Below are positions 13,851 to 58,917 of a stretch of 64,000 bases of DNA, one piece after another. Under the pieces are notes generated by a model. It saw only the letters and a list, made by a program, of their open reading frames with translations, searched no databases and was not told the origin of the DNA. Source of the stretch: Stenotrophomonas africana (lineage in GTDB: Bacteria; Pseudomonadota; Gammaproteobacteria; Xanthomonadales; Xanthomonadaceae); NCBI RefSeq assembly GCF_013004645.1, contig NZ_JABEME010000006.1:62001-126000 (forward strand). Direction: 5' to 3'. A program made the translations under genes and the position numbers. How positions within the stretch are numbered: position 1 is the first letter of the stretch; every line of letters begins with the position of its first letter.

Positions 13851-14852
13851 TCAGCAGCCCACCAGCCGATCCGCGCCAATACCGCCGCGATGCTGGCTGC
13901 GGTACTCGGTAGGGCTCGCAGCGACCTGACCTCGGAAGTGCCGTCGGAAGGATTCCTGCGAACCAAAGCCGGCCTGTTCTGCAATCCACTGCAGCGGCCG
14001 GTCAGTGGTTTCCAGCAGTTCGCGGGCGAAGGCCACGCGCTCGCGGATCAGCCAGTCGATCGGCGACAGGCCCGTGGCTTCCAGAAACTGCCGCTGCAAG
14101 GTGCGTTGGCTGAGTGCAGCCTGCTCGGCGAGACTGCCCAGTGAATGGGGCTCGCGCAGGTTGCGGCGCATCCACTCCATGAGTTTCGCCAGACGCGTCG
14201 GTTCCCCGTTGGGGATCGCGCGGCTGACGCGCTGGCTGCGCCCGGCATCGCGCCACGGTGCCAGCACCAGCCGCTCGGCGACCAGGTTGGCCACGCGTGC
14301 GCCGTAGTCCTTGCGCACCATGTGCAGCATCATGTCCATGCCGGTGGCTGAGCCGGCCGAGGTGATGATGCTGCCAGTATCCACATAGAGCACATCCTCG
14401 CGCACATCAATGCGCGGGAAGTCGCGTGCCAGCGCTTCGGTGAGGCGCCAGTGGGTGGTGGCCTGGCGGCCATCGAGCAGCCCGGCCCAGGCCAGCACGA
14501 AGGCACCGGAGCAGATCGAGGCGATGCGCGCGCCACGGGCATGGGCACGGATGAGCGCATCGAGCAGTGCCTGCGCTGGGCGCTCGCTGGGTTCGCGCCA
14601 ACCGGGGATGACGATGATGTCGGCGTCGTCGACGGCATCGAGCGCGTAGGGCAGCTGCACTTGGGTACCACCGAGCATGCGCAGTGCACCGGGCTCGCCT
14701 GCGCAGAGCTGGGTGCGGTACCAGGCCACGCCGAGTTCCGGCCGCACGGGTGCGAACAGGCCGACCGCGCAGCCGAACTCGAACAGCCCCTGGCCGTGGC
14801 AGGCGACGATGGCGACGAGCGGCGCGTTGGGATCGGCGGATGGGCTGGGCAT
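13851..14852 (-). CDS. ftrA: GlxA/FtrA-type AraC-family regulator
   Basis: 333 residues: an N-terminal DJ-1/PfpI-like domain (VAIVACHGQGLFEFGCAVGLF, ADIIVIPGW, ASICSGAFVLAWAGLLDGR with the nucleophile-elbow Cys) and a C-terminal AraC double helix-turn-helix (SLGSLAEQAALSQRTLQRQFLEATG and PLQWIAEQAGFGSQESFRRHFR). This layout matches FtrA/GlxA regulators. Target genes are unknown. It is divergent from the TonB receptor gene, with a REP pair in the gap. Confidence 0.9.
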   Translation of the reverse strand: MPSPSADPNAPLVAIVACHGQGLFEFGCAVGLFAPVRPELGVAWYRTQLCAGEPGALRMLGGTQVQLPYALDAVDDADIIVIPGWREPSERPAQALLDALIRAHARGARIASICSGAFVLAWAGLLDGRQATTHWRLTEALARDFPRIDVREDVLYVDTGSIITSAGSATGMDMMLHMVRKDYGARVANLVAERLVLAPWRDAGRSQRVSRAIPNGEPTRLAKLMEWMRRNLREPHSLGSLAEQAALSQRTLQRQFLEATGLSPIDWLIRERVAFARELLETTDRPLQWIAEQAGFGSQESFRRHFRGQVAASPTEYRSQHRGGIGADRLVGC

Positions 14853-14951: not shown

Positions 14952-15060
14952 CACCCGACGGGGTAGAGTCGACTGTTAGTCGACTATCGCGCGCAGCGCG
15001 GGCTTCCAGGCGGTATCGCCAACAGCAGTGGACTAACAGTCGACTCTACACCGTCGGGTG
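14952..15060. repeat. Paired inverted REP elements (GTAG type)
   Basis: GTAGAGTCGACTGTTAGTCGACT at 14963-14985 faces its inverse at about 15026-15049, and outer flanks CACCCGACGG and CCGTCGGGTG are also inverted, so the 109-bp unit can fold into one long cruciform or hairpin. The rest of the 368-bp gap from 14853 to 15220 holds no gene that I can support; a promoter for the TonB receptor must lie there. Confidence 0.88.
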
Positions 15061-15220: not shown

Positions 15221-17797
15221 ATGCCTGCCGCCCACGCCCCTGTCCTGAGCTCTCTCGCTGTTCTGATCACAGCCGTCCTTGCCGCGTCGTCCAGCCATGC
15301 CGCTGAAGCCGATGCGGATCCTGCCACCACGGCAGCCTCCGCCAATGTCGCGGCATCCACGCTGGATGCGGTGGTGGTGACCGGCTCGCGCACCAGCACG
15401 CGTACGGTGAAGAACAGCTCCACGCCTATCGATGTGATCTCCGCCGAGGACCTTGCCTCCACCGGCCAGGCCAACCTGCTGGAAGCGCTGCAGCGTGCGC
15501 TGCCGTCACTGAGCCAGATCGGCGGCTACCAGAGCGACCAGGAGAGCCTGATCCGCGGCTACCAACTGCGCAACCTGTCGCCCGGCTACACCCTGGTGCT
15601 GGTCAACGGCAAGCGCCGCAATGCCAGCGCCTATGTGAGCGGGGCGAATGGCGGCGGCTTCCCAGGGCACGCCTGGGCAGACCTGGCACTGATTCCGGTC
15701 TCGGCCATCGACCATGTGGAAGTGCTGCGCGATGGTGCATCGGCCATCTATGGCTCGGATGCGATTACCGGTGTGGTCAATGTGATCCTGAAATCGCAGG
15801 CGCACGGTGGCGAGTTTGCCGTGGAAAGCGGACAGAGCATCGATGGCGATGGCTCGCGTACCAGCGTGCGCGCCAATGTCGGCCTGCCGTGGGGCCAGGA
15901 CGGCTTCATCAACCTGTCCGGCGAGATCACCCGCCAGCATCATGCGATTCGTACCCGCCGCTACATCGATGGCTACCTGAGTTACCCGGCCGTGGATGCG
16001 AATGGCAATCGGGTGGCGCTGCGTCCGAACAACCGGTTGCCGGCCGGCGCAACGCCGAACCCGGCCGAAGCCAGCCGCAATGCCGAGGCCAATACCATCC
16101 TCAGCTCGCCGTCGTATGCGCTGAAGGCCTTCGCGGTGAACGTGGGCCATGGCCTGGGCGACAGCGCGCAGTTCTACGCCAATGCCACCGCCAGCGACCG
16201 CACCGCGCAGGCGATCCAGAACTTCCGCCTGCCGGCGACCATCTTCACTACCTACAAGGCACCCGGCGTGCTGGGCGTGTTTCCCGATGGCTTCCTGCCG
16301 GTGCTGGAAACCAAGGAAAAGCAGTACACCGGTACCGCAGGCGTGAAAGGCCAGGTCGCGGGCTGGGACTACGACGCCAGCCTGACCGGCAACCGCAGCA
16401 CAGTGCGTACCTATACGCGCAACTCGGTGAACTACTCGCTGCCGTACCCCGGCTCGCCCACTGATTTCTATGACGGCAAGCTGGACTACCAGCAGGGCAT
16501 CGCCAACCTGGACCTGCGGCGTGGCTTCGAGGTGGCAGCGTTCGCCTCGCCACTGGAAGTGAGCGCGGGCGCCGAGTACCAGCACGAACAGTACGAACGC
16601 GGGGCAGGGCAGTGGGAGTCGTACACCGGCTTCGGTGCCGCGGCGTTCGTCGGCTATTCCACCGCCGATGCGGTGAAGGCGACCCGCAACAGCAAGGCGG
16701 TCTATGTGGGCGCGGCCACCAACATCACCTCGCGCTGGTATCTGGATGCGGCCGCGCGCTGGGAAGACCATTCCGACTTCGGCAGTGTCTCCACCGGCCG
16801 CCTGACCACACGTTTCGACTTCACCGATGCGCTGGGCGTGCGCGCCACGGTCAGCAACGGCTTCCATGCGCCCAGCCTGGGCGCGCAGTTCTACCAGGCC
16901 ACTGGCAGCTGCCCGTGCGGGACCACGCTGGTGGCGCAGGTGTCTTCGCCGGCGGCGATCGCGCTGGGTGCCACGCCGCTGAAGCCCGAGAAAGCCACCA
17001 ACTACAGCCTGGGCGTGACCTGGGACCCGAGCCCGGCGTTCCACCTGGCAGTGGATGCCTATCAGATCGACATCCGCGGCCAGCTCGGTCAGTCAAGCCA
17101 GATCGGTTACAACGCGCAGGATCCGGCGCGCGTCACCGACAACAGCGGCACGGTGCTGAGTGCGGCGCAGAAGAACACCATCGATGCGCTGCTGGGCTCG
17201 GCCGGCATCAGCATTCTGCCGGGTGATGCGTTCTATGCCAGCTACTTCACCAACGTGGGCAACACGCGTACACGCGGTGTCGAGCTGACGCTGGAGGCGA
17301 ACCAGGAAACCACGTGGGGCAAGCTGCGCTGGAGCTACGCGGCCAACGTCGGCCGTACCACCATCCAGAAGGTCAGCGACATTCCGGCGGCGCTGCAGGG
17401 GCTGCCGAACATCAACCTGCTGACCAGGTCCAGCGAGTACGCGCTGCGCTTCCGCACGCCCAGCTACACCCAGGTGGCCGGGCTGGGCTGGCAGAACGGG
17501 CGCTGGCGCTCGAACCTGGACTTCACCTACTACGGCCCGATCAAGCGCCTGAACAACGGCGTGGAGTACAAGCAGCCGCCGGTGCTGGTGACCAACCTGT
17601 CCGGTGGCGTGGAACTGGGGGCGGGCTGGAGCGCGGCGCTGGGCATCAACAACGTGTTCGACAAGCGCACGCGCAAGGTGCCCGAGTACGCGCGCAGCGC
17701 CACTGATGTGGCCAGTATCGAGACGACCTGGGACAACGGCGATGTGCTGAGCAACGTTGGGGCGTACTGGTACGGGCGGGTCAGTTACCGGTTCTGA
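15221..17797 (+). CDS. TonB-dependent outer-membrane receptor
   Basis: 858 residues with a signal peptide (LAVLITAVLAASSSHAAEAD), a TonB box (TLDAVVVTGSR), a plug domain (TPIDVISAEDLASTGQANLLEAL; GYTLVLVNGKRR; DGASAIYGSDAITGVVNVIL) and a long beta-barrel ending in the aromatic YWYGRVSYRF. Subtype resembles the large TonB receptors with a GSRTSTRTV-type opening. It precedes the FMN reductase/monooxygenase/ABC operon on the same strand and is the likely outer-membrane gate for that substrate. Start 15221 gives the signal peptide directly. Confidence 0.92.
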   Translation: MPAAHAPVLSSLAVLITAVLAASSSHAAEADADPATTAASANVAASTLDAVVVTGSRTSTRTVKNSSTPIDVISAEDLASTGQANLLEALQRALPSLSQIGGYQSDQESLIRGYQLRNLSPGYTLVLVNGKRRNASAYVSGANGGGFPGHAWADLALIPVSAIDHVEVLRDGASAIYGSDAITGVVNVILKSQAHGGEFAVESGQSIDGDGSRTSVRANVGLPWGQDGFINLSGEITRQHHAIRTRRYIDGYLSYPAVDANGNRVALRPNNRLPAGATPNPAEASRNAEANTILSSPSYALKAFAVNVGHGLGDSAQFYANATASDRTAQAIQNFRLPATIFTTYKAPGVLGVFPDGFLPVLETKEKQYTGTAGVKGQVAGWDYDASLTGNRSTVRTYTRNSVNYSLPYPGSPTDFYDGKLDYQQGIANLDLRRGFEVAAFASPLEVSAGAEYQHEQYERGAGQWESYTGFGAAAFVGYSTADAVKATRNSKAVYVGAATNITSRWYLDAAARWEDHSDFGSVSTGRLTTRFDFTDALGVRATVSNGFHAPSLGAQFYQATGSCPCGTTLVAQVSSPAAIALGATPLKPEKATNYSLGVTWDPSPAFHLAVDAYQIDIRGQLGQSSQIGYNAQDPARVTDNSGTVLSAAQKNTIDALLGSAGISILPGDAFYASYFTNVGNTRTRGVELTLEANQETTWGKLRWSYAANVGRTTIQKVSDIPAALQGLPNINLLTRSSEYALRFRTPSYTQVAGLGWQNGRWRSNLDFTYYGPIKRLNNGVEYKQPPVLVTNLSGGVELGAGWSAALGINNVFDKRTRKVPEYARSATDVASIETTWDNGDVLSNVGAYWYGRVSYRF

Positions 17798-17805
17798 TCT
17801 GGAGC

Positions 17806-17828
17806 AGTCGAGCATGGCTCGACTCTAC
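17806..17828 (-). repeat. Single REP element
   Basis: On the minus strand GTAG precedes AGTCGAGCCATGCTCGACT, the same palindrome type as elsewhere. It lies 8 bp after the TonB receptor stop. A second hairpin, GCCGGAC-GTA-GTCCGGC at 17844-17860, follows before the next gene's ribosome binding site; neither has a U-tract. Confidence 0.82.
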
Positions 17829-17878
17829 AAAAGGCGAAGGGCGGCCGGACGTAGTCCGGCATCATCGAGGAGCAGTTC

Positions 17879-18460
17879 ATGTCTTCTGCATTGAAGGTGG
17901 TTGCATTGGTGGGGTCGCCGACCAGTTCGGTGACGTCGCGTACGTTGCTGCTGGTGCGGTACCTGCTGGCGTCTCTGCAGGAGCAGGTGCATGCCAGCGT
18001 GGAGCGGGTGGAGCTGGCGCCGATTGCACGCTCGCTGGGCCAGTCACTGTCGCGGGGTGAAGTGGAACCGGCAGTGGAACAGGCGCTGCGGACCATCGAG
18101 ACCGCCGAATTACTCGTGGTGGCAGCGCCCGTGCACCGTGGATCGTATCCGGGCCTGTTCAAGCACCTGGTCGACTTCATCGAGCTGGAAGCGCTGGTGG
18201 ATACGCCGGTACTGCTGGCGGCAACCGGTGGCAGTGAGCGCCATGCGCTGGTGATCGATCACCAGCTGCGGCCGTTGTTCAGTTTCCTGCAGGCGCACAC
18301 GCTGCCGATCGGGGTGTACGCCACGCCGGCCGACTTCGACGGTGAGCACATCACCAGTGTGGCCTTGCAGGCGCGCATCGCGCTGGCGACCGAGCGTGCG
18401 GCCGGGCATCTGGCCACGCAGTCGCTGGCGGTAGCGGCGCCGCTGCGACGCATCGCCTGA
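17879..18460 (+). CDS. NADPH-dependent FMN reductase (MsuE/SsuE-like)
   Basis: 193-residue flavodoxin-like reductase: VVALVGSPTSSVTSRTLLLVRYL at the N-terminus, LLVVAAPVHRGSYPGLFKHLVDFI (FMN-binding signature with the SsuE/MsuE-type RGSY) and LLAATGGSERHALVIDHQLRPLFSFL. It supplies reduced FMN to two-component monooxygenases, and two luciferase-type monooxygenase genes follow, so it is probably their partner. GAGGAGC precedes the start. First gene of the operon proper. Confidence 0.9.
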   Translation: MSSALKVVALVGSPTSSVTSRTLLLVRYLLASLQEQVHASVERVELAPIARSLGQSLSRGEVEPAVEQALRTIETAELLVVAAPVHRGSYPGLFKHLVDFIELEALVDTPVLLAATGGSERHALVIDHQLRPLFSFLQAHTLPIGVYATPADFDGEHITSVALQARIALATERAAGHLATQSLAVAAPLRRIA

Positions 18461-18617
18461 CGCCATAACCGGCGGCGCTTTGCTTATGGCCAAGGCGCAT
18501 CTGCATGGCCGGATGTGACCGCCGATTGTCGCCTGGCATCGCCGTGCCGACGGCTGTCATCTCTAGCATCGATATCGACGCGGCATCGCATGGCCGCCCC
18601 CCGATGAGGACGACCCC

Positions 18618-18980
18618 GTGAGTCTGGACGCAAACGATAAGCCCATCCTGTTCCTGCTCGACCGTGAGTTCGAGGACGGACAGATTCCCGGCCAGCGCTT
18701 CTTCTGCCGGCACAGCCTGTTGCTGGAAGGGGCGCTGTCGAGCATCGACGGCCTGGACGCGCAGCTGGACGTGCGCCACGTCGGTTTTGCGCGGCCGCGC
18801 CACGAGGTGATCGCCGCGATCGGCGAGCAGGACCAGTCGCTGCCGAAGCTGGTGCTGCCGCAGGGCGTGCGCAGCGACCTGGCCAGCGGCGCGCACCAGG
18901 ACCGCCAGTACATCTCCGGTGCCGAGCCGATCCTGGCCGCGCTGAACGGATTGCTCGGTATTCCCGTGGCCCACCCCTGA
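18618..18980 (+). CDS. DUF3088 domain protein
   Basis: 120-residue protein starting with GTG, with GAGGA 7 nt upstream. It has FLLDREFEDGQIPGQRFFCRHSLLLEGALS, then VRHVGFARPRHEVIAAIGEQDQSLPKLVLP and ISGAEPILAALNGLLG, the DUF3088 pattern; the fold appears thioredoxin-like but the family C-x-x-C is absent (FFCRH keeps one Cys). It sits between the FMN reductase and the monooxygenases, 14 bp before the latter. Its role in this operon is unknown. Confidence 0.85.
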   Translation: MSLDANDKPILFLLDREFEDGQIPGQRFFCRHSLLLEGALSSIDGLDAQLDVRHVGFARPRHEVIAAIGEQDQSLPKLVLPQGVRSDLASGAHQDRQYISGAEPILAALNGLLGIPVAHP

Positions 18981-18994
18981 GCGAGGACGCGACC

Positions 18995-19972
18995 ATGAGT
19001 TATCAGATCAGCGTGCTGGACAAGAGCCCGGTGGCCGAAGGTGCCTCGCCGGAGCAGGCGCTGCGCAACAGCCTGCAGCTGGCACAGCGTGCCGAGCAGT
19101 TGGGTTACCACCGGTACTGGTTTGCCGAGCACCATGCCGCGCCGACCTTGGCCAGCCCCGCACCGGAAGTGCTCGCGGCCTGGGTACTGGCGCAGACCCG
19201 GCGCATCCGCATCGGCAGCGGTGGGGTGATGCTGCGCCACTACGCGCCGTACAAGGTCGCGGAGAACTTCAACCTGCTGTCGGCGCTGGCGCCGGGGCGT
19301 GTTGACCTCGGCGTGGGCAAGGCACCCGGTGGCCTGCCGGCCTCTACGGCTGCATTGGCAGCGGGGCGGCCGGCGTTTGCCGATTTCGACCAGCAGCTGC
19401 GCGACCTGGAGGGCTATCTGTCGGGTACCGACGCCGAGGCGCAGGCGCGCCCGATCCCGCAGCAGGCGCCGGAGCGCTTCCTGCTCGGTGCCAGCCCGCA
19501 GAGCGCCAAGCAGGCGGCCGAGCTGGGCTGGCGTTTCGTTTACGCCGCGCACTTTGATGGCGACCCGAAACACATCGAGGCTGCGTTCGATGCCTATCGC
19601 AGCGTCTCCTCGCAGCCACCGCTGCTGGCCACGGTGGCCTTCGCCGCACCGACTGCTGAAGCCGCAGCGCGTCACATCGGTGCGCTGCGGGTCTACAAGC
19701 TGCACCTCGGTCCCGGGCAAGCGGTGAACCTGCCCAGCCCGGAGGCGGCTGCCGAGTACGCGCGCCAGGTGGGCGTGGCCGACTTCCGCATCGAGGAAAC
19801 CCGCCCGAGCGTGTTGTCTGGCGATGCGCAGCACGTGCGTGACGAACTGGATGCGCTGCACCGGCGCTTCGGCGTGGGTGAGTTCATTCTCGATGCGCCG
19901 GTGGCCGACCTCGACGCACGCCTGACATCCCTTGAACTGCTGTCGCCCGCGCCGCGCGCGGCGGTGGCCTGA
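18995..19972 (+). CDS. LLM-class flavin monooxygenase (MsnO8-like)
   Basis: 325-residue luciferase-like TIM barrel: YQISVLDKSPVAEGAS, YHRYWFAEHHAAPTLASPAPEVL, IRIGSGGVMLRHYAPYKVAENFNLL, PGRVDLGVGKAPGG. These are the hallmarks of the MsnO8/YtmO-type LLM oxidoreductases that use FMNH2 from a separate reductase. In Bacillus, YtmO belongs to the operon for S-substituted cysteine use, which also fits the neighbours here. Followed 18 bp later by a second, NtaA-type monooxygenase. Confidence 0.9.
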   Translation: MSYQISVLDKSPVAEGASPEQALRNSLQLAQRAEQLGYHRYWFAEHHAAPTLASPAPEVLAAWVLAQTRRIRIGSGGVMLRHYAPYKVAENFNLLSALAPGRVDLGVGKAPGGLPASTAALAAGRPAFADFDQQLRDLEGYLSGTDAEAQARPIPQQAPERFLLGASPQSAKQAAELGWRFVYAAHFDGDPKHIEAAFDAYRSVSSQPPLLATVAFAAPTAEAAARHIGALRVYKLHLGPGQAVNLPSPEAAAEYARQVGVADFRIEETRPSVLSGDAQHVRDELDALHRRFGVGEFILDAPVADLDARLTSLELLSPAPRAAVA

Positions 19973-19990
19973 CCTGCAGGAGCGATTCCC

Positions 19991-21334
19991 ATGAGCACGA
20001 CCCCGCGCCACATTCCGTTCGGCATCATGCTGCAGGGTCCCGGCAGTCACATGCATGCCTGGAAGCATCCATCCAACCCGGCCGATGCCAGCGTCAACCT
20101 GCAGTTCTACATCGACATCGTGCGCACCGCCGAGGACAACGGCATCGCCTTCGGCTTCGTGGCGGACGGCCTGTACATCAACGAGAAGTCGATTCCGCAC
20201 TTCCTCAACCGCTTCGAGCCGATCTCGCTGCTGTCGGCACTGGCGACGGCGACGAAGAAGATCGGCCTGGCCGGTACGCTGTCGACCTCCTACAGCGATC
20301 CGTTCACCGTGGCGCGCCAGTTCGCCTCGCTGGATCTGCTCAGCGGCGGCCGCGCTGGCTGGAACGTGGTGACCTCGCCGCTGGAAGGCTCCGGTCGCAA
20401 TTACGGCCGGCCACACCCGGAGCATGCGCTGCGCTACCAGATCGCCGACGAATATCTGGAGGTGGTGCAGGGGCTGTGGGATTCGTGGGATGACGATGCC
20501 TTCGTGCGCGAGCGCGACAGCGGCACGTTCTTCGCACCAGAGAAGTTCCGCCGGCTCGATCACAAGGGGCGCTTCTTCCAGGTGGAAGGCCCGCTCAACA
20601 TCCAGCGTTCGCCACAGGGCCAGCCGGTGATTTTCCAGGCGGGTTCTTCCGATGATGGCATTGCGTTGGCTGGCAAGTACGCCGATGCGGTGTTCACCCA
20701 TTCGCCGTCGCTGGAAGAGACCCGCGCATTCACCCAGAAGGTGAAGAATTCGGCGATCGCGCACGGCCGCGGCGGCAGTGACGTGAAGATCTTCCCGGGT
20801 ATCGGCCCCATCGTCGGCCGCACTGCCGAGGAGGCCGAAGCCAAGTACCAGGCAATCGCCGCGCTGGCCACGCTGGAGGATGCGCTGGCGTACCTGGGGC
20901 GCTTCTTCGATCACCATGATTTCAGCCAGTACGACCCGGATGCACCGTTCCCGGAGCTGGGCGACATCGGCAGCAACTCGTTCCGTTCCACTACCGACCG
21001 CATCAAGCAGGATGCGCGTGAGAAGGGCCTGAGCCTGCGCCAGGTGGCGTTGGAGGCGGTGAGCCCACGACCGAACTTCATCGGCACGCCGGAGCACGTG
21101 GCCGATGAGCTGATCCGTTGGTTCGACGCCGGTGCCAGCGACGGTTTCATTCTCGGCTTCGCCGCACAGCGCGAAGGCCTGGACGATTTCGTGACCCAGG
21201 TGCTGCCGATCCTGCAGGCGCGCGGCTACCACCAGCGCGAGCTGGAAGGGCAGACCCTGCGCGAGCACTTGGGCCTGCCGTACAAGGCCAGCCGTCATGC
21301 GACCGATGCCGAACCGGCGCGGAAGGTGGGGTAA
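19991..21334 (+). CDS. NtaA/SnaA/DszA-type flavin monooxygenase (YxeK/CmoJ-like)
   Basis: 447-residue LLM monooxygenase of the nitrilotriacetate/dibenzothiophene group: FGIMLQGPGSHMHAWKHP, SISLLSALATATKKIGLAGTLST-like segment, DLLSGGRAGWNVVTSPLEG, RFFQVEGPLNIQRSPQGQPVIFQAGSS, and FIGTPEHVADELIRWFDAG. Length and motifs match YtnJ (CmoJ) and YxeK, which oxidise N-acetyl-S-alkylcysteines to release the sulfur-bearing amino acid. The neighbouring acetyltransferase and amidohydrolase support that reading. Substrate not proven. Confidence 0.9.
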   Translation: MSTTPRHIPFGIMLQGPGSHMHAWKHPSNPADASVNLQFYIDIVRTAEDNGIAFGFVADGLYINEKSIPHFLNRFEPISLLSALATATKKIGLAGTLSTSYSDPFTVARQFASLDLLSGGRAGWNVVTSPLEGSGRNYGRPHPEHALRYQIADEYLEVVQGLWDSWDDDAFVRERDSGTFFAPEKFRRLDHKGRFFQVEGPLNIQRSPQGQPVIFQAGSSDDGIALAGKYADAVFTHSPSLEETRAFTQKVKNSAIAHGRGGSDVKIFPGIGPIVGRTAEEAEAKYQAIAALATLEDALAYLGRFFDHHDFSQYDPDAPFPELGDIGSNSFRSTTDRIKQDAREKGLSLRQVALEAVSPRPNFIGTPEHVADELIRWFDAGASDGFILGFAAQREGLDDFVTQVLPILQARGYHQRELEGQTLREHLGLPYKASRHATDAEPARKVG

Positions 21335-21338
21335 GGCG

Positions 21339-22559
21339 ATGAGCGGAGAGAATTCGGTAGCGCTGGGCCATGCCCGGCGAGATCCCGCGTCCATCGGCGT
21401 GCTGCCCGAAATCGCAGCACGCGCCGAGGCCGCCATTGCGATCCGTCATGACCTGCACCGGCACCCGGAGCTGGCCTTCGAGGAGCACCGCACCAGCGCC
21501 CGAGTGGCCGAACTGCTGCAGCAGTGTGGCTATGAGGTGACCACCGGCCTCGGTGGCACCGGCGTGGTCGGTACGCTGCAGCGCGGGCAGGGTAGCCGTC
21601 GTCTCGGTCTGCGCGCCGACATCGATGCACTGCCGATCCACGAGGACTCCGGCCTGGCCTATGCCAGCCAGACCGAGGGGCTGATGCATGCCTGCGGCCA
21701 CGATGGGCATACCGCGATCCTGCTGTCCGCTGCGCACTATCTGGCCCATCACGGTGCTATCGATGGCACCCTGCAGCTGGTGTTCCAGCCGGCCGAGGAA
21801 ACCGGTTCGGGTGCTTCGAAGATGATTGCCGATGGCCTGTTCGAGCGCTTCCCGGTGGATGCCATCTACGGCCTGCACAATTGGCCGGGTGTGCCGGTGG
21901 GCCATTTCGGCTTCGTCGATGGCCCGGCGATGGCGTCGGTGGACTGGGCGCGGCTGAAGGTGATCGGCAAGGGCGGTCACGGCGCCGAGCCGCAGGGTAG
22001 CGTCGATCCGATCTTGGTGGCGGCGCACATCATCACCGCGCTGCAGAGCGTGGTGTCGCGCAACGTCGATCCGCGGCAGATGGGCGTAGTCACTGTCGGT
22101 TCGATTCATGGCGGCCAGGCAGCCAATGTGATTCCGGACGTGGTCGAGCTGAAGCTGACCGTGCGCGCCTACCTGCCCGAGGTACGCGACACCCTGCGGC
22201 GCCGGGTCACCGGGATTGCCGAGCAGACCGCCGCCGCGTTCGGCGCACGTGCCGAGATCGAGTTCCCGCGCGGCTTCCCCAGCGTGATCAACCATCCGCA
22301 GCAGACCGCCTACATCCGCGAGGTGGCGCTGCAGGGCTTCGGCAGTGAACAGGTGGTGCCGGAATTCGCGCCACGCACGGCCAGCGAAGACTTCGCATTC
22401 CTGCTGCAGGCGCGGCCGGGCAGCTTCGTATTCGTTGGCAACGGCGACAGTGCGCCGCTGCACAGCCCGCGCTACGTGTTCAACGATGCCGCCATTGCAC
22501 CGGCCGCCAGCCTGTGGGCGCGGCTGGCCGAAGACTATCTGGTGAAGGACGTGGCATGA
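21339..22559 (+). CDS. M20-family amidohydrolase (N-acetyl-cysteine-type deacetylase)
   Basis: 406-residue zinc amidohydrolase: RHDLHRHPELAFEEHRTSARVAELL, LRADIDALPIHEDSG, MHACGHDGHTAILL (metal ligands), FQPAEETGSGASKMI and the C-terminal PRTASEDFAFLL. The HACGHDGHT subtype is the hippurate/N-acyl-amino-acid group (YxeP/SndB, YtnL/SndA-like). It could remove the N-acetyl group after the monooxygenase step. It starts 4 bp after the NtaA-type gene and overlaps the next gene by ATGA, so expression is coupled. Confidence 0.92.
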   Translation: MSGENSVALGHARRDPASIGVLPEIAARAEAAIAIRHDLHRHPELAFEEHRTSARVAELLQQCGYEVTTGLGGTGVVGTLQRGQGSRRLGLRADIDALPIHEDSGLAYASQTEGLMHACGHDGHTAILLSAAHYLAHHGAIDGTLQLVFQPAEETGSGASKMIADGLFERFPVDAIYGLHNWPGVPVGHFGFVDGPAMASVDWARLKVIGKGGHGAEPQGSVDPILVAAHIITALQSVVSRNVDPRQMGVVTVGSIHGGQAANVIPDVVELKLTVRAYLPEVRDTLRRRVTGIAEQTAAAFGARAEIEFPRGFPSVINHPQQTAYIREVALQGFGSEQVVPEFAPRTASEDFAFLLQARPGSFVFVGNGDSAPLHSPRYVFNDAAIAPAASLWARLAEDYLVKDVA

Positions 22560-23107
22560 GCAGCGACGAACGCTTCCTCTATACCTCGGTGGATGATCCG
22601 CTGGCACGGCCCCTGTTCGATGGCCTGGAACAGGAGTACGACAGCCGCTACGCCGACGTGCGCCGACGCATCGGCGGCAGCGCCCGCGAGGAGCTGCAGC
22701 GCTACCCGGCGCAGGCCTTTGCTGCCCCGGTAGGGGCGTTCGTACTGCTGCTGCGAGACGGCGTGGCGATCTCCGGCGGCGCCTTCATGCCCCATCGCGA
22801 TCCGGAAACCGCCGAATTCAAACGCATCTGGACGCTGCCCGGGCTGCGCCGGCAGGGCATCGCGCGTCGCGTGCTTCAGGAACTGGAAGACCAGGCGGCG
22901 CGGCAAGGGTACCGGCGGGTGTTCCTGACCACCGGCTTCCGCCAGCCTGAAGCGGTTGGCCTGTACCTCAGCCATGGCTACACCGCGCTGTTCGACCTGG
23001 AGGCCGACCTGGAAACCATTGCGCATCTGCCGTTCGAGAAGCATCTACGTGCGCCGGCGCCTGTTGTTGCGCCTACGCAGACCGTGTTGCACGGAGCCCA
23101 CGCATGA
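22556..23107 (+). CDS. GNAT N-acetyltransferase
   Basis: 183-residue GNAT enzyme: RIWTLPGLRRQGIARRVLQELEDQAARQGYRRVFLTTGFRQPEAVGLYLSHGY covers motif A (RRQGIARR, acetyl-CoA loop) and motif B. Position between the M20 deacetylase and the ABC transporter matches snaA/snaB (YtmI/YxeL), which N-acetylate S-substituted cysteines before oxidation. Start ATG overlaps the previous stop, and its own stop overlaps the next start, both as ATGA. Substrate assignment is by operon logic. Confidence 0.88.
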   Translation: MSSDERFLYTSVDDPLARPLFDGLEQEYDSRYADVRRRIGGSAREELQRYPAQAFAAPVGAFVLLLRDGVAISGGAFMPHRDPETAEFKRIWTLPGLRRQGIARRVLQELEDQAARQGYRRVFLTTGFRQPEAVGLYLSHGYTALFDLEADLETIAHLPFEKHLRAPAPVVAPTQTVLHGAHA

Positions 23108-24849
23108 GCACGCCTTCGACCGCATTGGATGGCATTGCCGCCCGTCCTGCGCCAGCGCCTGCACTGAAGATCGTGCCAGCCCGGCATCCGCTGCAGGTGT
23201 TCGGCACAGTATTGGCACTGGCGCTGATCCTGATCGGGCTGCAGTCCGTGCTGGGCAATCCGCGCTGGGGCTGGGGCACCTTCGCCGAGTGGTTCTTCGC
23301 ACGCCCGGTGCTGGAAGGCCTGGGCCGCACGCTGCTGCTGACTGCACTCGGAACTGGCCTCGGTTTCGCGCTGGGCACCTTGCTGGCGTTGGCCCGTGTG
23401 TCCGGCTCGCCGCTGCTGTCGGCGGTGTCGTGGGGCTACGTGTGGTTGTTCCGTTCGATTCCGCTGCTGGTGCTGTTGCTGCTGCTGAACAACCTGGGCT
23501 ATCTGTACAGCACCATCGAACTGGGCGTTCCCTTCACCGGCATCAGCCTGTTCTCCTACCCGACCACGCAGCTGATCGGTGTGTTCACTGCGGCGGTGCT
23601 GGGTCTTACCTTGAACCAGGCGGCGTTCTCGGCCGAGGTGATCCGCGGCGGGATTCTGTCGGTGGACCACGGACAGTACGAAGCGGCCGCCGCGCTTGGC
23701 CTGCCGCGTAGCCGCCAGGTGCGCCGCATCATCCTGCCGCAGGCGATGCGTTCGATCCTGCCGGCCGCCTTCAACGATGTGATTGGCCTGGCCAAGAGCA
23801 CTTCGGTGGTCTACGTGCTGGCGCTGCCGGAGCTGTTCTATACCGTGCAGGTAATCTACCGCCGCAATCTGGAGGTGGTGCCGCTGCTGATGGTGGCCAC
23901 GGTCTGGTACCTGGTAATCCTTACCGTGCTGTCGCTGTTGCAGCGGCGCGTGGAGCAACGCTTCGCGCGTGGCCAGCTGCAGTGCGAGCGCTCGGTGTCG
24001 CGGGTGTCATCGCCCCCGCGTGTGCAGAGCGAAGCCGCGCCGCGCGTGGCAAGCCGCCCGCGCATCGCCACGCAGGTGGAAGCGGGCGAGGGAGCTGCGG
24101 TGTCGCTGCATGGCGTAGGCAAGGTGTTCGGCGACCAGCCAGTGCTGGAAGACGTGAACCTGGACCTGCGCGCCGGCAGCGTGACGGTGCTGATCGGCCC
24201 GTCCGGCGCCGGCAAGTCCACGCTGCTGCGGCTGATCAACCACCTCGAACGCGCCGACGGCGGTTACGTGACTGTCGGCGGCCAGCTGATCGGCTACCGC
24301 CGCGAGGGTGACACCTTGTACGAACTGCCCGAGCGTGAGATCCGCCGCCGTCGTGCGGAAGTGGGCATGGTGTTCCAAGGCTTCAACCTGTTCCCGCACC
24401 TGACCGCGCTGGAAAACATCATCGAGGCACCGATCGCGGTGCGTGGCGTGCCGCGCGCGCAGGCCGAGCAGCAGGCGCGGACGCTGCTGGAGCGGGTTGG
24501 CCTGGCCGACAAGGCCGATGCGTTCCCGCGCCAGCTGTCCGGTGGCCAGCAGCAGCGCATCGCGATTGCGCGGGCACTGGCGCTGCAGCCGAAGGTGCTG
24601 CTGTTCGACGAACCCACGTCGGCGCTGGACCCGGAGCTGGTGGCCGAGGTGCTGAGCGTGATCGAGGAGCTGGCCCGCTCCGGTACCACGCTGGTGATCG
24701 TCACCCATGAACTGAGCTTCGCCCGCCGCGTGGCCGACCACGTGGTGATGATGGACCAGGGACGGGTGATCGAGCAGGACACGCCCGAGGCCCTGTTCGA
24801 GCGCCCGCGCCAGCAACGCACCGCCGATTTCCTGGCCAAGACCCTGTAA
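23104..24849 (+). CDS. Fused ABC permease and ATPase, polar amino acid type
   Basis: 581 residues. The first 290 form a HisMQ-type permease (GLGRTLLLTALGTGLGFALG; FFRS-like WLFRSIPLLVLLLL; EAF motif region AFSAEVIRGGILSVDHGQYEAAAALGLPRSRQ; ILPAAFNDVIGLAKSTSVVYVL). After a low-complexity linker of about 35 residues comes a complete ATPase: Walker A IGPSGAGKST, Q-loop FQGFNLFPHLT, LSGGQQQRIAIARAL, Walker B LLFDEPTSALD, H-loop VTHELSF. Permease and ATPase are normally separate chains; here they are one polypeptide. It serves with the substrate-binding protein downstream; TcyKLMN/YxeNO are the closest functional parallels. Confidence 0.92.
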   Translation: MSTPSTALDGIAARPAPAPALKIVPARHPLQVFGTVLALALILIGLQSVLGNPRWGWGTFAEWFFARPVLEGLGRTLLLTALGTGLGFALGTLLALARVSGSPLLSAVSWGYVWLFRSIPLLVLLLLLNNLGYLYSTIELGVPFTGISLFSYPTTQLIGVFTAAVLGLTLNQAAFSAEVIRGGILSVDHGQYEAAAALGLPRSRQVRRIILPQAMRSILPAAFNDVIGLAKSTSVVYVLALPELFYTVQVIYRRNLEVVPLLMVATVWYLVILTVLSLLQRRVEQRFARGQLQCERSVSRVSSPPRVQSEAAPRVASRPRIATQVEAGEGAAVSLHGVGKVFGDQPVLEDVNLDLRAGSVTVLIGPSGAGKSTLLRLINHLERADGGYVTVGGQLIGYRREGDTLYELPEREIRRRRAEVGMVFQGFNLFPHLTALENIIEAPIAVRGVPRAQAEQQARTLLERVGLADKADAFPRQLSGGQQQRIAIARALALQPKVLLFDEPTSALDPELVAEVLSVIEELARSGTTLVIVTHELSFARRVADHVVMMDQGRVIEQDTPEALFERPRQQRTADFLAKTL

Positions 24850-24864
24850 CCCTCAAGGAATGCC

Positions 24865-25842
24865 ATGAGCCCTGCAGCACCCCGTCGTCCCTCGCGCAGC
24901 ACCCTGTTGATTGTGGGCGTGCTGGTCATCGGCATCGCCGGCATAGTCTATTCGCGCGTACGCCAGGGGCCGGATGCAGGCGCCGTGGCCGCGACCAGCC
25001 TGGCAAGCGGCAACACCGTTGCCTTGAAGGGCACGTTTGACCCGAAGGCGCAGGCGTTGATCCCGGCCGACTATCGCTTCGTCACCCCCGGTACGTTCAC
25101 CGTGGCGACCCATCCGGGACAGCTGCCTCTGGCCGATTATGGGGCCGACAGCAAGGACGTAGTCGGCATCGAGCCCGACATCGCCCGCCTGATCGCCGAT
25201 GCGCTGGGCCTGGAGCTGGTGATCGTACCGGTGGCCTGGGCCGACTGGCCGCTGGGGCTGGAATCGGGCAAGTACGATGCGGTGCTGTCGAACGTGACGG
25301 TCACCGAGGAGCGCAAGAAGAAATTCGATTTCTCCAGCTACCGTTACGACCTGCTGGGCATCTACACGCGCACCGATGGGCCGATCCAGAAGATCGAGAA
25401 ACCGGCGGATGTGGCGGGGCTGAAGGTGGTGGTGGGTGCCAGCACCAATCAGGACCAGATCCTGCGGCAGTGGGACCAGCAGAACATTGCCGCCGGCTTG
25501 AAGCCGGTGGAGTACCAGTACTTCGATGACGCCGTGGTCGGCCGGTTGGCGGTGATTACTGGTCGCGCGGATGTGTCGTTCGAACCGAATGCCACCGGCG
25601 CCTACTCGGCACGCGACGGCAAGGTGCGGCGTGTGGGCCTGTTCCCTGGCGGCTGGCCCAACGCCGCGGCGATCTCGGTGACCACCCGTAAGGGCAGCGG
25701 CCTGGCTGACGCGGTGACGCAGGCATTGAACACCCAGATCGGCAGCGGCACTTACGCACAGGCGCTGGAACGATGGAACGTGGCCGAGGAAGCGGTGCCG
25801 CAGTCGCAGACCAACCCGCCGGGATTGCCGACGCTGCAATGA
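24865..25842 (+). CDS. ABC transporter substrate-binding protein
   Basis: 325 residues with an N-terminal membrane anchor (STLLIVGVLVIGIAGIVYSRV) and a type II solute-binding fold: GTFTVATHPGQLPLADYGADSKDVVGIEPDIARLIADALGLELVIVP, NVTVTEERKKKFDFSSYRYDLLGIYT, GLKVVVGASTNQDQILRQWD. These fit family 3 amino-acid-binding proteins. It ends the operon, 15 bp after the fused transporter gene, and is presumably the periplasmic partner of the latter. Substrate unknown; S-substituted cysteine is a candidate. Confidence 0.9.
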   Translation: MSPAAPRRPSRSTLLIVGVLVIGIAGIVYSRVRQGPDAGAVAATSLASGNTVALKGTFDPKAQALIPADYRFVTPGTFTVATHPGQLPLADYGADSKDVVGIEPDIARLIADALGLELVIVPVAWADWPLGLESGKYDAVLSNVTVTEERKKKFDFSSYRYDLLGIYTRTDGPIQKIEKPADVAGLKVVVGASTNQDQILRQWDQQNIAAGLKPVEYQYFDDAVVGRLAVITGRADVSFEPNATGAYSARDGKVRRVGLFPGGWPNAAAISVTTRKGSGLADAVTQALNTQIGSGTYAQALERWNVAEEAVPQSQTNPPGLPTLQ

Positions 25843-25868: not shown

Positions 25869-25936
25869 GTAGAGTCGAGCTTGCTCGACTGGCGCATGGT
25901 GATCGGCGACATGCGGTCGAGCAAGCTCGCCTCTAC
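25869..25936. repeat. Paired inverted REP elements
   Basis: GTAGAGTCGAGCTTGCTCGACT at 25869-25890 faces an inverse copy ending in CTCTAC at 25936. The second arm's GTAG, read on the minus strand, supplies the TAG stop codon of the glycosidase gene. It lies between convergent operon ends and may act as a transcription-ending or mRNA-stabilising hairpin. Confidence 0.85.
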
Positions 25937-42401: not shown

Positions 42402-42477
42402 GTAGAGTCGACTATCGCGCGCAGCGCGGTTTCTGCCCGCTCCGAACGAAAAGCAGTCGACTAACAGTCGACTCTAC
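42402..42477. repeat. Paired inverted REP elements
   Basis: GTAGAGTCGACTATCG at the left and its partner GCAGTCGACTAACAGTCGACTCTAC-type end at the right form inverted arms; the left copy lacks the GACTGTTAGT part that the right copy keeps. It is a partly deleted relative of the pair at 14952-15060. Confidence 0.82.
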
Positions 42478-49364: not shown

Positions 49365-50399
49365 TCAGGCTGGCAGGGCTTCGTCCAGGCTGCGCGCGGT
49401 GTCAGGAATGGCCGGCTGTGGCGACCATGCGGGCGGGTTGCGATGCCACTGCCACGCGCTCTCGATGATCGGTGCCAGCTCGGTCCATCTGGGGTGCCAC
49501 CCCAGCAATTGGCGAGCGCGGGTGGAGGAGGCGACGAGGCTGGCTGGATCGCCCGGCCGGCGTTCTGCCAACTCAAATGGAATGCTGCGCCCGCTCACCT
49601 CTGCTGCAGCGGCGATGACTTCGCGGACAGAGAAGCCCTGGCCATTGCCGAGATTGAATGCATGCGCGCCGGGCGTGTGGTCCATGTACTCAAGAGCGAG
49701 CGCGTGGGCCTGGGCCAGGTCCTGCACATGTACATAGTCGCGCACGCAGGTGCCATCGGGCGTGGCGTAGTCATCGCCGAACACCCTCATGGCGTTGCCG
49801 ATGCCCAATGCGGCACGCAGGACATTGGGGATCAGGTGGGTTTCGCAGGCATGGGCCTCGCCAATGCCGTGGTCGGGCAGGGCGCCAGCGGCATTGAAGT
49901 AGCGCAGGCAGGTCGAGCGCAGGCCGTAGGCTGTGGCTGCGTCAGCGAGGATCCGCTCTGCCATCAGCTTGCTGGCGCCGTAGGGGTTGATCGGCGCCTT
50001 GGGGTGGTCCTCGTCGATCACATCCGACTGTGGATTACCGAATACCGCAGCGGTGGAGGAGAACACGATGCGATCAATGTCGTGGCGGCGCATGGCCTCC
50101 AGCAGGTTCAACGTGCCGGTGACGTTGTTGGCGTAGTAGGTATAAGGAGCGGAAACCGATTCGCCCACCAGCGAACGTGCGGCGAAGTGCATCACGGCGT
50201 CAAAGTGACGGCCTTGGAGGGCGCGCTCGAGTGTTTCGGGGGCCAGTAGATCGGCTTCCAGCAGTTCACCCCAGCGGACGGCATCGCGGTGACCAGTAGA
50301 CAAGTTGTCGAGCACGGTTACGGAGTGGCCGGCTTCGGCCAGATACTGGGCCATGTGGCTGCCGATGTAGCCGGCGCCGCCGCAGATGAGGACCTTCAT
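49365..50399 (-). CDS. galE: UDP-glucose 4-epimerase
   Basis: 344 residues; NAD-dependent epimerase that makes UDP-galactose (or UDP-GalNAc) for the polysaccharide genes upstream. Seen: VLICGGAGYIGSHMAQYLAEAG (Rossmann), VFSSTAAVFGNP, NPYGASKLMAERIL (Y..K catalytic), LRYFNAAGA, GDDYATPDGTCVRDYVHVQDLAQAHALAL. Length normal. 25 bp after the first glycosyltransferase gene in the same direction, so it is probably the last gene of the locus operon. Confidence 0.96.
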   Translation of the reverse strand: MKVLICGGAGYIGSHMAQYLAEAGHSVTVLDNLSTGHRDAVRWGELLEADLLAPETLERALQGRHFDAVMHFAARSLVGESVSAPYTYYANNVTGTLNLLEAMRRHDIDRIVFSSTAAVFGNPQSDVIDEDHPKAPINPYGASKLMAERILADAATAYGLRSTCLRYFNAAGALPDHGIGEAHACETHLIPNVLRAALGIGNAMRVFGDDYATPDGTCVRDYVHVQDLAQAHALALEYMDHTPGAHAFNLGNGQGFSVREVIAAAAEVSGRSIPFELAERRPGDPASLVASSTRARQLLGWHPRWTELAPIIESAWQWHRNPPAWSPQPAIPDTARSLDEALPA

Positions 50400-50424
50400 G
50401 ATTCTTCCCTAAAAGCTAACTGGA

Positions 50425-51534
50425 TCAGGCTTCCTTGCGGATCTTTGCCTGGATGAAAGACGAGAGATCCTCCCTGAACCGGTCAGGCCCGAACTGCTCA
50501 GCTCTCGCACGGCATGCGGTGGCCGAGATGGGCCTTGGAAGTCCCTCAAAACGAGCGATAGCTTCATTGATCGCTTCAACGGATTGCTCATGGAAGAACA
50601 ATCCCGAGGCCACATCGGGGTCGTCACTTTCCACAACTGTCTCGAGCGCGCCTCCCTTGGCAAATGCAATGACAGGAGTTCCGGATGCCATTGCCTCAAG
50701 CGGGACGATGCCGAAATCCTCTACGCCAGGAAACACCAAGGCTCTCGCATTGGCCAAGTGTTCCTTCAGTGCAGAGAAGGGTTGTCGCCCAAGAACGATG
50801 ACTCGATCCGTTGCGCGCGCCTGCATGGCTGCCAGCTGCTCGCCTTCGCCGATGATGACCAGGCGCTTTCCGCTGCGAAGGAACGCATCCATTACCAGAT
50901 CAGCTTTCTTGTAGGCAGTTAACTGGCCGAGGAGCAGGTAATAGTCCTGTTTCTCGGCGCGCACTTCAAAGTCGTCTACCTCAACCGGAGGGTGGATGAC
51001 CTCAGCGCTTCGGCGATAGCACTTGTCTATGCGGCGTGCGATGAACTTCGAGTTTGCAATGAAGTGATCAACGCGAGAGGCTGACACGGAATCGGTGATT
51101 CGCATGTAGTGCATTAATGGTCGCATCAACAGCCTGGTCAGCCATCCAGCATCGGCGAGGTATAGCCGATACATGTCCCAGACATACCGCATCGGGCTAT
51201 GGCAATAGCAGATGTGTACTGCATCAGGATGCGTAATGACGTTCTTCGCGGGCCCGGACTCGCTCGAGATGATGAGATCGTACGCGGTAAGATCCAGCTG
51301 CTCCAAGGCGATGGGCATGAATGGAAGATACTTCTGATAGCGCTTTCGAGCCCCAGGCAGTCTGGATATAAAGGTCTTTTGCACCCGATGCCCAGCAAGA
51401 TGCTTATGTTCTATCTCCGGTGCTGCAACGTGCGTGAATATGTCGGCGTCTGGATAGAGCTTGAGCAGTTGCTCAATTACCTTCTCGCCGCCACGCCATG
51501 TAACGAACCAGTAGTGAATGATCGCTACTTTCAT
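50425..51534 (-). CDS. GT4-family glycosyltransferase (WbaZ-like)
   Basis: 369 residues: VAIIHYWFVTWRGGEKVIEQLLKLYPDADIFTHVAAPE at the start, YCHSPMRYVWDMY (mannosyltransferase-like), then the GT4 C-terminal domain YYLLLGQLTAYKKADLVMDAF, VIGEGEQLAAMQ, RALVFPGVEDFGIVPLEAMASGTPVIAFAKGGALETVV. The E-x7-E motif (EDFGIVPLE) binds the nucleotide sugar. Substrate probably GDP-mannose-like by resemblance only. Overlaps the next GT gene by ATGA. Confidence 0.92.
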   Translation of the reverse strand: MKVAIIHYWFVTWRGGEKVIEQLLKLYPDADIFTHVAAPEIEHKHLAGHRVQKTFISRLPGARKRYQKYLPFMPIALEQLDLTAYDLIISSESGPAKNVITHPDAVHICYCHSPMRYVWDMYRLYLADAGWLTRLLMRPLMHYMRITDSVSASRVDHFIANSKFIARRIDKCYRRSAEVIHPPVEVDDFEVRAEKQDYYLLLGQLTAYKKADLVMDAFLRSGKRLVIIGEGEQLAAMQARATDRVIVLGRQPFSALKEHLANARALVFPGVEDFGIVPLEAMASGTPVIAFAKGGALETVVESDDPDVASGLFFHEQSVEAINEAIARFEGLPRPISATACRARAEQFGPDRFREDLSSFIQAKIRKEA

Positions 51535-52631: not shown

Positions 52632-52705
52632 GGGGATGGGCTCGTGCGATTTCATGCGCTGCAAAACTCGATTGCCTATGAATTGTGGTTCATGAAGGTA
52701 TTCCT

Positions 52706-53977: not shown

Positions 53978-54019
53978 GATGCAATGACTATTGGTCGATG
54001 GTTGCGGGGCATGGATGGA

Positions 54020-56343: not shown

Positions 56344-56365
56344 AGTTGCATTGGTTTCGGACGAT

Positions 56366-58835: not shown

Positions 58836-58917
58836 TGAGCCCGGCATGCTGCGTGGTGTAGCTCTACTGAAGGGTGGGAGGTGGGAGGCGCACTCCCTTG
58901 AACGCCACATTCGTTAG

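Follow-up and report, generated by a model that had tools for sequence, protein, structure and literature searches.

Gene organization at the locus

We analyzed a 64,000-nucleotide stretch of the Stenotrophomonas africana genome (contig NZ_JABEME010000006.1, positions 62,001 to 126,000; genome size, 4.57 Mb), referred to below as the window, which at 15221-25842 carries a run of nine plus-strand genes resembling in content the cmo (ytm) operon of Bacillus subtilis. The run begins with a TonB-dependent receptor (15221-17797; Pfam TonB_dep_Rec_b-barrel and Plug), followed by an msuE-type NAD(P)H:FMN reductase (17879-18460; TIGR03566, 214.6 bits; cut-off, 212.5), a DUF3088 protein of 120 amino acids (18618-18980; PF11287, 102.2 bits; gathering cut-off, 26.4), a CmoO-like luciferase-like monooxygenase (LLM) of the MsnO8 family (18995-19972; TIGR03558, 333.6 bits; cut-off, 167), and a CmoJ-like LLM of the NtaA/DmoA family (19991-21334; TIGR03860, 515.1 bits; cut-off, 280). 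These are followed by an M20 amidohydrolase (21339-22559; TIGR01891, 360.9 bits; cut-off, 154), a GNAT N-acetyltransferase (22556-23107; PF00583, 52 bits), an amino-acid ABC transporter whose permease and ATPase are fused (23104-24849; BPD_transp_1 and ABC_tran within one open reading frame [ORF]), and, as the last gene, a family 3 solute-binding protein (SBP) (24865-25842; SBP_bac_3, 84.8 bits). All of the gene families named in the original prediction are present, with curated cut-offs passed wherever a curated model fits.

The genes had been described as following one another with overlapping ends, which holds for the M20/GNAT and GNAT/ABC junctions, with overlaps of 4 nucleotides (nt) at ATG 22556 and at 23104, respectively, while the other junctions are gaps of 4 to 157 nt. 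From the 5' side, these spacings are 81 nt between the TonB receptor and msuE, 157 nt between msuE and the DUF3088 gene, and then 14, 18, and 4 nt up to cmoO, cmoJ, and the M20 gene, with 15 nt separating the ABC gene from the SBP gene. The M20 distance is counted to ATG 21339, the longest ORF beginning upstream at 21297. For the receptor, the start is most likely ATG 15221, which by eye gives a signal-peptide-like N terminus, rather than TTG 15137, where the longest ORF begins. Scanning for consensus motifs yielded no sigma-70-like promoter and, on the plus strand, a single terminator-like site, located inside cmoO; because both promoter and terminator counts were at or below those of shuffled sequences, the scan says little. 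The gene after the SBP gene lies on the opposite strand, encodes an F5/8 type C domain, and is not counted in the operon.

The two monooxygenases are most likely CmoO and CmoJ

When the product of 19991-21334 (P0004) was compared with PDB sequences, the nearest characterised enzyme was B. subtilis YtnJ (1tvl, 6ask, and 1yw1; 529 bits), which we take to be CmoJ. Other enzymes in the PDB scored far lower, including 7e36 (280 bits), DszA (270 bits), DmoA (226 bits), EDTA monooxygenase (209 bits), and SsuD (31 bits), and on these grounds EDTA, alkanesulfonate, dimethyl sulfide, and dimethylsulfone monooxygenases were rejected as identities for this gene product. Closer similarity to nitrilotriacetate or sulfonate enzymes had been named beforehand as a point that would speak against a role in cysteine salvage; the protein is nearer YtnJ than the EDTA, dimethyl sulfide, dibenzothiophene, and sulfonate enzymes in the PDB, and only 3sdo scored higher (633 bits), a protein whose PDB entry calls it nitrilotriacetate monooxygenase. 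In a tree with 61 rows, of which 54 are different and seven are duplicates, P0004 and YtnJ share a fork of 31 rows with support of 93/95, which is below the mark at which forks are starred. A cmoO-like gene within 9 kb is labelled for 29 of these 31 rows, the label of YtnJ coming from the literature; among the 30 rows outside the fork, cmoO was present in 5, absent from 15, and not determinable in 10, the sequence available around these being too short.

The product of 18995-19972 (P0003) is 39 to 43% identical to the MsnO8-type LLMs encoded beside cmoJ in Listeria, Niallia, and Paenibacillus, and 35% identical to the only further protein of this genome that matches it at an E value of 1e-5. 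In a tree that by mistake also included a different LLM (row L099_14588), the operon CmoO rows and the Bacillota cmo LLMs were split from the own-genome paralogue and MsnO8 with support of 99/97. This product is most likely CmoO, likened to it through the Listeria, Niallia, and Paenibacillus proteins rather than through YtmO itself. Altogether, the identities and the forks and splits of the two trees make CmoO and CmoJ the most likely assignments for this pair of LLMs, the latter as an orthologue of the Bacillus enzyme.

Conservation of the operon and its regulator

Gene order and strand were kept in the 12 cmo-type loci fetched from the family, among which one is a 4-kb contig showing only DUF3088, cmoO, and cmoJ (L025) and two are without msuE (L034 and L035); this conservation in relatives argues that the cluster is not a chance assembly. 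In 30 loci from Stenotrophomonas, Xanthomonas, and a Lysobacterales metagenome-assembled genome (L122-L151), cmoO, cmoJ, and DUF3088 were found in every case, the TonB receptor in 29, and the regulator and msuE in 26 each; the receptor and regulator misses fall at contig ends, and msuE is missing from three loci of Xanthomonas and from a short contig. A relative of the receptor with 34% identity stands directly 5' of cmoO in L093, a locus from another family. One record labelled Bacillus subtilis SK7B5 (L144, JAHREJ010000022.1) carries the whole Stenotrophomonas-type operon at 78 to 89% identity and is almost certainly a contamination or a mislabel.

The regulator, encoded divergently at 13851-14852 on the minus strand, combines a DJ-1/PfpI domain (64 bits) with an AraC-type helix-turn-helix (HTH_18, 78 bits). 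It is part of the conserved unit, probably controls the operon, and presumably belongs to the FtrA-like proteins.

Inverted repeats containing GTAGAGTCGA(C/G) were observed at 14952-15060, 17806-17828, 25869-25936, and 42402-42477, so placed that they flank the TonB receptor gene on both sides and adjoin the 3' side of the last gene. With at most one mismatch, this motif has six matches in the window against 0.56 expected, and the repeats flanking the operon pair as arms of 34, 8, and 21 nt, the pairing check having covered the repeats around the operon. We take them to be akin to the SMAG/GTAG palindromes of Stenotrophomonas. Elsewhere in the window, the G+C content drops from about 0.67 to 0.52-0.58 over 50001-60000, a possible genomic island.

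Comparison with the ytm and yxe systems of Bacillus subtilis

CmoO of B. subtilis converts N-acetylated S-alkylcysteine to its sulfoxide, and CmoJ cleaves the sulfoxide into an aldehyde and the sulfenic acid of N-acetylcysteine, after which "reduction of 4 followed by deacetylation" completes a pathway whose substrates are S-alkyl- and S-benzylcysteine (PMC10863075). The B. subtilis ytm operon is composed of ytlI ytmI tcyJKLMN ytmO ytnIJ rbfK ytnLM (PMC2885750). The window operon has in common with it adjoining CmoO- and CmoJ-type LLMs, a GNAT, an M20 amidohydrolase, an amino-acid ABC transporter, a flavin-related gene, and, if DUF3088 is the redox protein that its predicted fold suggests, a thiol-redox protein beside the LLMs. 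The two differ in the TonB receptor and the fused permease-ATPase, which occur only in the window; in the regulator, which is of the DJ-1/AraC type rather than LysR; in the MsuE-type reductase standing against rbfK; in DUF3088 standing against the redoxin YtnI; and in YtnM, which has no counterpart in the window operon.

For the M20 protein, the best PDB match was YxeP (1ysj; 258.6 bits), other M20 amidohydrolases scoring 217 to 243 bits. YxeP/ScmP and the ytn and yha paralogues (YtnL, ScmP, and YhaA) deacetylate N-acetylcysteine (PMC12757645), and by analogy the window protein is proposed to be an N-acetylcysteine deacetylase. The GNAT, assigned by gene context, is proposed to be an S-alkylcysteine N-acetyltransferase; its match to the GNAT of the Listeria operon had an E value of 4e-4 over 100 residues. 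Regarding the transporter, the best model for the ATPase half of the fused ABC protein was TcyN (cystine; 305 bits, below the cut-off of 406), and the best NCBIfam model for the SBP was likewise cystine-binding (67.9 bits, far under the cut-off of 312). The MsuE-type reductase would supply reduced FMN (FMNH2) to both LLMs.

The original prediction had likened the cluster to both the yxe and the ytm operons, with S-(2-succino)cysteine (2SC) as a candidate substrate. An alternative reading is that the operon degrades 2SC by the yxe/scm route, the GNAT acetylating the substrate, the NtaA-type LLM acting as YxeK, and the M20 protein removing the acetyl group. The yxe/scm locus (YxeK, YxeL, YxeMNO, YxeP, and YxeQ) does follow the same logic of acetylation, oxygenation, and deacetylation, the acetyltransferase, LLM, deacetylase, and amino-acid ABC transporter superfamilies are common to both systems, and YxeP is the nearest of the solved structures to the window M20 protein. 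However, the window has two LLMs where yxe has one, and the conserved CmoO partner would be unneeded in a 2SC route; the NtaA-type LLM moreover falls in the YtnJ fork, YxeK itself being known here by description only. A Pfam and NCBIfam scan of the nine operon proteins also gave no match to MmgE/PrpD, which we take to be the YxeQ-like family, and the Pfam scan gave none to a lyase family, both of which speak against this route, for which a 2SL lyase or a YxeK of more than 50% identity to the B. subtilis enzyme would be a mark. In the published 2SC route, YxeK works without a CmoO-like partner, and the yxe/scm locus is defined by three of five components, YxeQ not being required (PMC9706529). 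We consider 2SC degradation improbable; the paired MsnO8- and NtaA-type LLMs match CmoO with CmoJ rather than a lone YxeK.

Another possibility is a general scavenging of organosulfur compounds such as sulfonates, sulfones, or methionine derivatives, in which the amidohydrolase would have other N-acyl amino acids as substrates. The FMN reductase belongs to the type of MsuE, which is known from methanesulfonate use, and in Agrobacterium vitis and Burkholderia, DUF3088 genes have LLM genes and sulfonate- or SSU-like ABC genes in their vicinity. Yet the transporter is of an amino-acid type, sulfonate metabolism has no obvious need for a GNAT or an M20 protein, and the window LLM is only distantly similar to SsuD and dimethylsulfone monooxygenase, so that we hold this reading to be very improbable.

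Proposed pathway

The pairing of an MsnO8-type with an NtaA-type LLM points to the S-alkylcysteine pathway of ytm/cmo rather than to yxe/2SC. We consider it likely that the locus is a proteobacterial cmo (ytm-type) operon salvaging cysteine sulfur from S-alkyl- or S-aralkylcysteines, with the sulfoxides of these compounds as possible further substrates. The reactions and substrates set out here are carried over from the Bacillus chemistry. Import of the S-substituted cysteine would fall to the TonB receptor together with the ABC transporter, and the GNAT would acetylate the amino group. With FMNH2 made by MsuE, CmoO would oxidize the thioether to the sulfoxide, and CmoJ would cut the C-S bond to give an aldehyde and N-acetylcysteine sulfenic acid. 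N-acetylcysteine may then be formed by DUF3088, a putative monothiol protein, through reduction of the sulfenic acid or of the mixed disulfide that it makes with glutathione, and the M20 protein would release cysteine from N-acetylcysteine by deacetylation. As had been predicted, a logic of uptake, N-acetylation, flavin-dependent C-S cleavage, and deacetylation fits the gene content, as far as this can be judged from sequence.

On this reading, the cluster is of the known cmo/ytm salvage type, in a Gram-negative form that has a receptor in the outer membrane and another putative redox protein. For organosulfur scavenging the set of genes is an ordinary one, and what merits attention is the proposed role of DUF3088. 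Judged by titles and the beginnings of abstracts, literature searches on cmo operons of Gram-negative bacteria, on sulfur-related LLMs of Stenotrophomonas, and on TonB receptors for organosulfur compounds returned nothing on this operon.

DUF3088 is predicted to have a thioredoxin-type fold with an invariant cysteine

The AlphaFold2 model of the DUF3088 protein (pLDDT, 91.8; pTM, 0.86) has the thioredoxin-type order of elements, i.e., strand 10-14, helix 31-40, strand 51-55, helix 62-68, strands 77-79 and 96-100, and helix 102-113, with extra strands at 18-20 and 23-28. In this model, Cys30 (CRHS) marks the N-terminal end of helix 1, Pro76 immediately precedes the strand beginning at residue 77, in the place of the cis-proline, and a thioredoxin/GST-N fold with a beta-alpha-beta and beta-beta-alpha core is predicted. 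Both residues are invariant in alignments of 13 and 25 rows (25/25 in the latter, which drew on 24 of 51 scan loci and left out L164, with its in-frame stop, four partial matches, and many near-identical sequences). The residue three positions after Cys30 is serine in 12, cysteine in 9, and glycine in 4 of the 25 rows, a variation that gives the pattern of a monothiol site. VIA-align of the model returned, among the 50 rows shown, dehydroascorbate reductase (DHAR), CLIC, GST, SspA, and glutaredoxin structures (best Z, 8.5; 2.8 Å over 89 residues). In an hmmsearch against PDB sequences, matches were limited to E values of 0.62 to 1.1, and 15 of 16 were DsbA-type proteins aligned on the CPHC site. 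HHpred had placed DUF3088 in the thioredoxin clan in 2010, with Grx2 (3ir4) as the top PDB match, in a paper whose accessible portion proposes no function for the family (PMC3091736). The mentions of DUF3088 found in the literature, insofar as their text was accessible, do not tie it to the cmo pathway.

According to the original prediction, DUF3088 has no known counterpart in Bacillus. This is not supported: ytnI, known here by listing alone, is given as a redoxin in a published table (PMC3862929) and has ytmO and ytnJ as its neighbors on either side (PMC2885750), and in two of three Bacillota loci a glutaredoxin gene lies between the LLMs, as in Niallia (FMN reductase-cmoO-glutaredoxin-cmoJ, the glutaredoxin belonging to PF00462) and in Listeria (SsuE-GNAT-SBP-permease-permease-ATPase-LLM-glutaredoxin-LLM, by annotation). 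DUF3088, with its predicted thioredoxin fold, may take the place of this glutaredoxin, the equation of the two roles being by analogy. A sequence homology to the operon glutaredoxins was rejected, as no relation emerged from profile-profile comparison, and the window protein gave no PF00462 match at 0.001. Thiol-handling proteins of differing folds were seen to recur at cmo loci, namely, a DinB/mycothiol-transferase-like gene between M20 and cmoJ in Paenibacillus (L113, 4712-5353) and, downstream of the operon, a DSBA-like gene in L095 and a GST gene in L102.

That DUF3088 carries out the reduction step after CmoJ is, by this analogy, slightly less than an even bet; the glutathione mixed disulfide is the simplest route, because one cysteine then suffices. 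Put more broadly, DUF3088 could be a dedicated monothiol reductase of an unrelated or very distant family that replaces the Bacillota cmo glutaredoxin in glutathione-making bacteria and serves likewise in other organosulfur clusters with flavin monooxygenases, a proposal that we regard as tentative. In the accessible cmo-pathway literature, to which the original CmoO/CmoJ paper does not belong, no enzyme is named for the reduction of the sulfenic acid. DUF3088 might instead be a GST-like or carrier protein for the CmoJ aldehyde or another by-product, or a redox sensor: the VIA-align rows are led by DHAR, CLIC1, and GST N-terminal domains, a GST gene stands just after the cmo locus L102, and DUF3088 is also found beside other LLM clusters. 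Against this, the protein is too short to hold the helical substrate domain of GSTs, Cys30 is invariant, and two Bacillota operons place a glutaredoxin between the LLMs. We judge such a role unlikely, though less remote than the other alternatives above, and retain reduction of the CmoJ product as the proposed function.

Distribution of DUF3088 and the cmo genes

Within the family, DUF3088 was found in 21 of 297 genomes, the window's own included, and a CmoJ-like protein at an E value of 1e-100 in 23 of 297. The 14 of these CmoJ proteins that are at least 81% identical to P0004 all come from genomes with DUF3088 nearby on the same contig (in G342, by coordinates only), and the other nine genomes, with 42 to 49% identity, have no DUF3088. 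Among the 17 genomes of the genus listed in both searches, 9 have both DUF3088 and CmoJ and 8 have neither. In the class sample, DUF3088 occurred in 2 of 274 genomes, one being that of the window. In the phylum sample, 41 of 398 genomes, including the window's own and three others of the genus, gave a CmoJ-like match at 1e-100, not all of them orthologues.

Twenty CmoJ-like loci were fetched, 19 from the phylum sample and one from the family, and 13 also carry cmoO. In these 13 loci of other families, GNAT, ABC, and SBP genes adjoin cmoO-cmoJ in 12 and an M20 gene in 10. The cmo loci of Phyllobacterium and Mesorhizobium plasmids and of Bosea are further proteobacterial examples. DUF3088 and the receptor had been thought to define a Gram-negative version of the operon; as such marks they were rejected as not general, given that 12 of the 13 loci have no relative of the receptor and most have no DUF3088, which is present in L093, L094, L097, and L098. 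Bacillota glutaredoxins used as queries, in a search that covered 101 loci over 9 kb plus the window, gave nothing better than an E value of 0.9 in these 13 loci.

DUF3088 adjoins cmoO-cmoJ in varied arrangements in Mesorhizobium, Bosea, and a third family (L093); the gene order seen in the window, DUF3088-MsnO8-LLM-M20-GNAT-permease/ATPase-SBP, recurs on the Mesorhizobium plasmid MesoLj131b2. In one Mesorhizobium operon, an Xre/MbcA/ParS-type antitoxin-like gene was observed directly 5' of DUF3088 (L114, 8108-8986). A contig scan for DUF3088 yielded 51 loci, with cmoO and cmoJ at 36, an NtaA-type LLM of 38 to 41% identity at 5 more, and neither, with the queries used, at 10; as the scan patterns were built from cmo-linked DUF3088 rows only, 36 of 51 is not an unbiased rate. 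Of the 51, 25 (L122-L146, including one [Pseudomonas] hibiscicola) are of the Stenotrophomonas type, with proteins 83 to 96% identical to that of the window, and four partial matches (L166 and L170-L172) may be spurious.

A number of these results weigh against the proposed pathway and the place of DUF3088 in it. The GNAT is nearly without sequence similarity to the Bacillota operon GNATs, the match being at superfamily level only, and one of the three Bacillota loci, that of Paenibacillus (L113), has no glutaredoxin. With respect to structure, the best Z score of DUF3088 is near the range of a mere common arrangement, a Foldseek search with the model returned mostly thioredoxins and GSTs but none at E < 0.001, and hhalign against the Niallia and Listeria glutaredoxins gave a probability of 1.1%, one side of that comparison consisting of two rows only. 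With respect to distribution, 7 of the 21 family genomes with DUF3088 have no CmoJ match at 1e-100; in other families, 9 of the 13 loci with cmoO and cmoJ are without DUF3088; and, genome-wide, among 23 genomes whose CmoJ-like match reaches at least 49%, it is absent from 18 and present in 5, in one of these away from the locus. Given its absence from these 9 loci and 18 genomes, the reduction step does not need DUF3088. Plasmid records were also opened, 8 of the 43 with DUF3088 and 6 of the 673 with a YtnJ relative, and an LLM was annotated within 9 kb of DUF3088 in 5 of the 8 and in the other 3 was missing, the PLSDB gene tables being incomplete.

A strict tie of DUF3088 to organosulfur genes was rejected in view of these plasmids and of the family locus L032. 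In L032 (8662-13846) and L030 (8718-12405), two family loci with no close cmoJ, a relative of the DJ-1/AraC regulator with 48 to 50% identity is divergent from DUF3088, which is followed by a TonB receptor and then by a PepSY protein in L032 and, by eye, a PepSY-like ORF in L030. They represent a second context of DUF3088, perhaps related to metals or siderophores.

Significance of the proposed DUF3088 function

The product of CmoJ is a small-molecule sulfenic acid whose reduction is required before deacetylation. If DUF3088 does perform this step, the finding would assign a function to an uncharacterised family and fill a missing step of the pathway, in a form easily tested with purified protein, and it would give weight to the view that the pathway may be widespread among Gram-negative bacteria.

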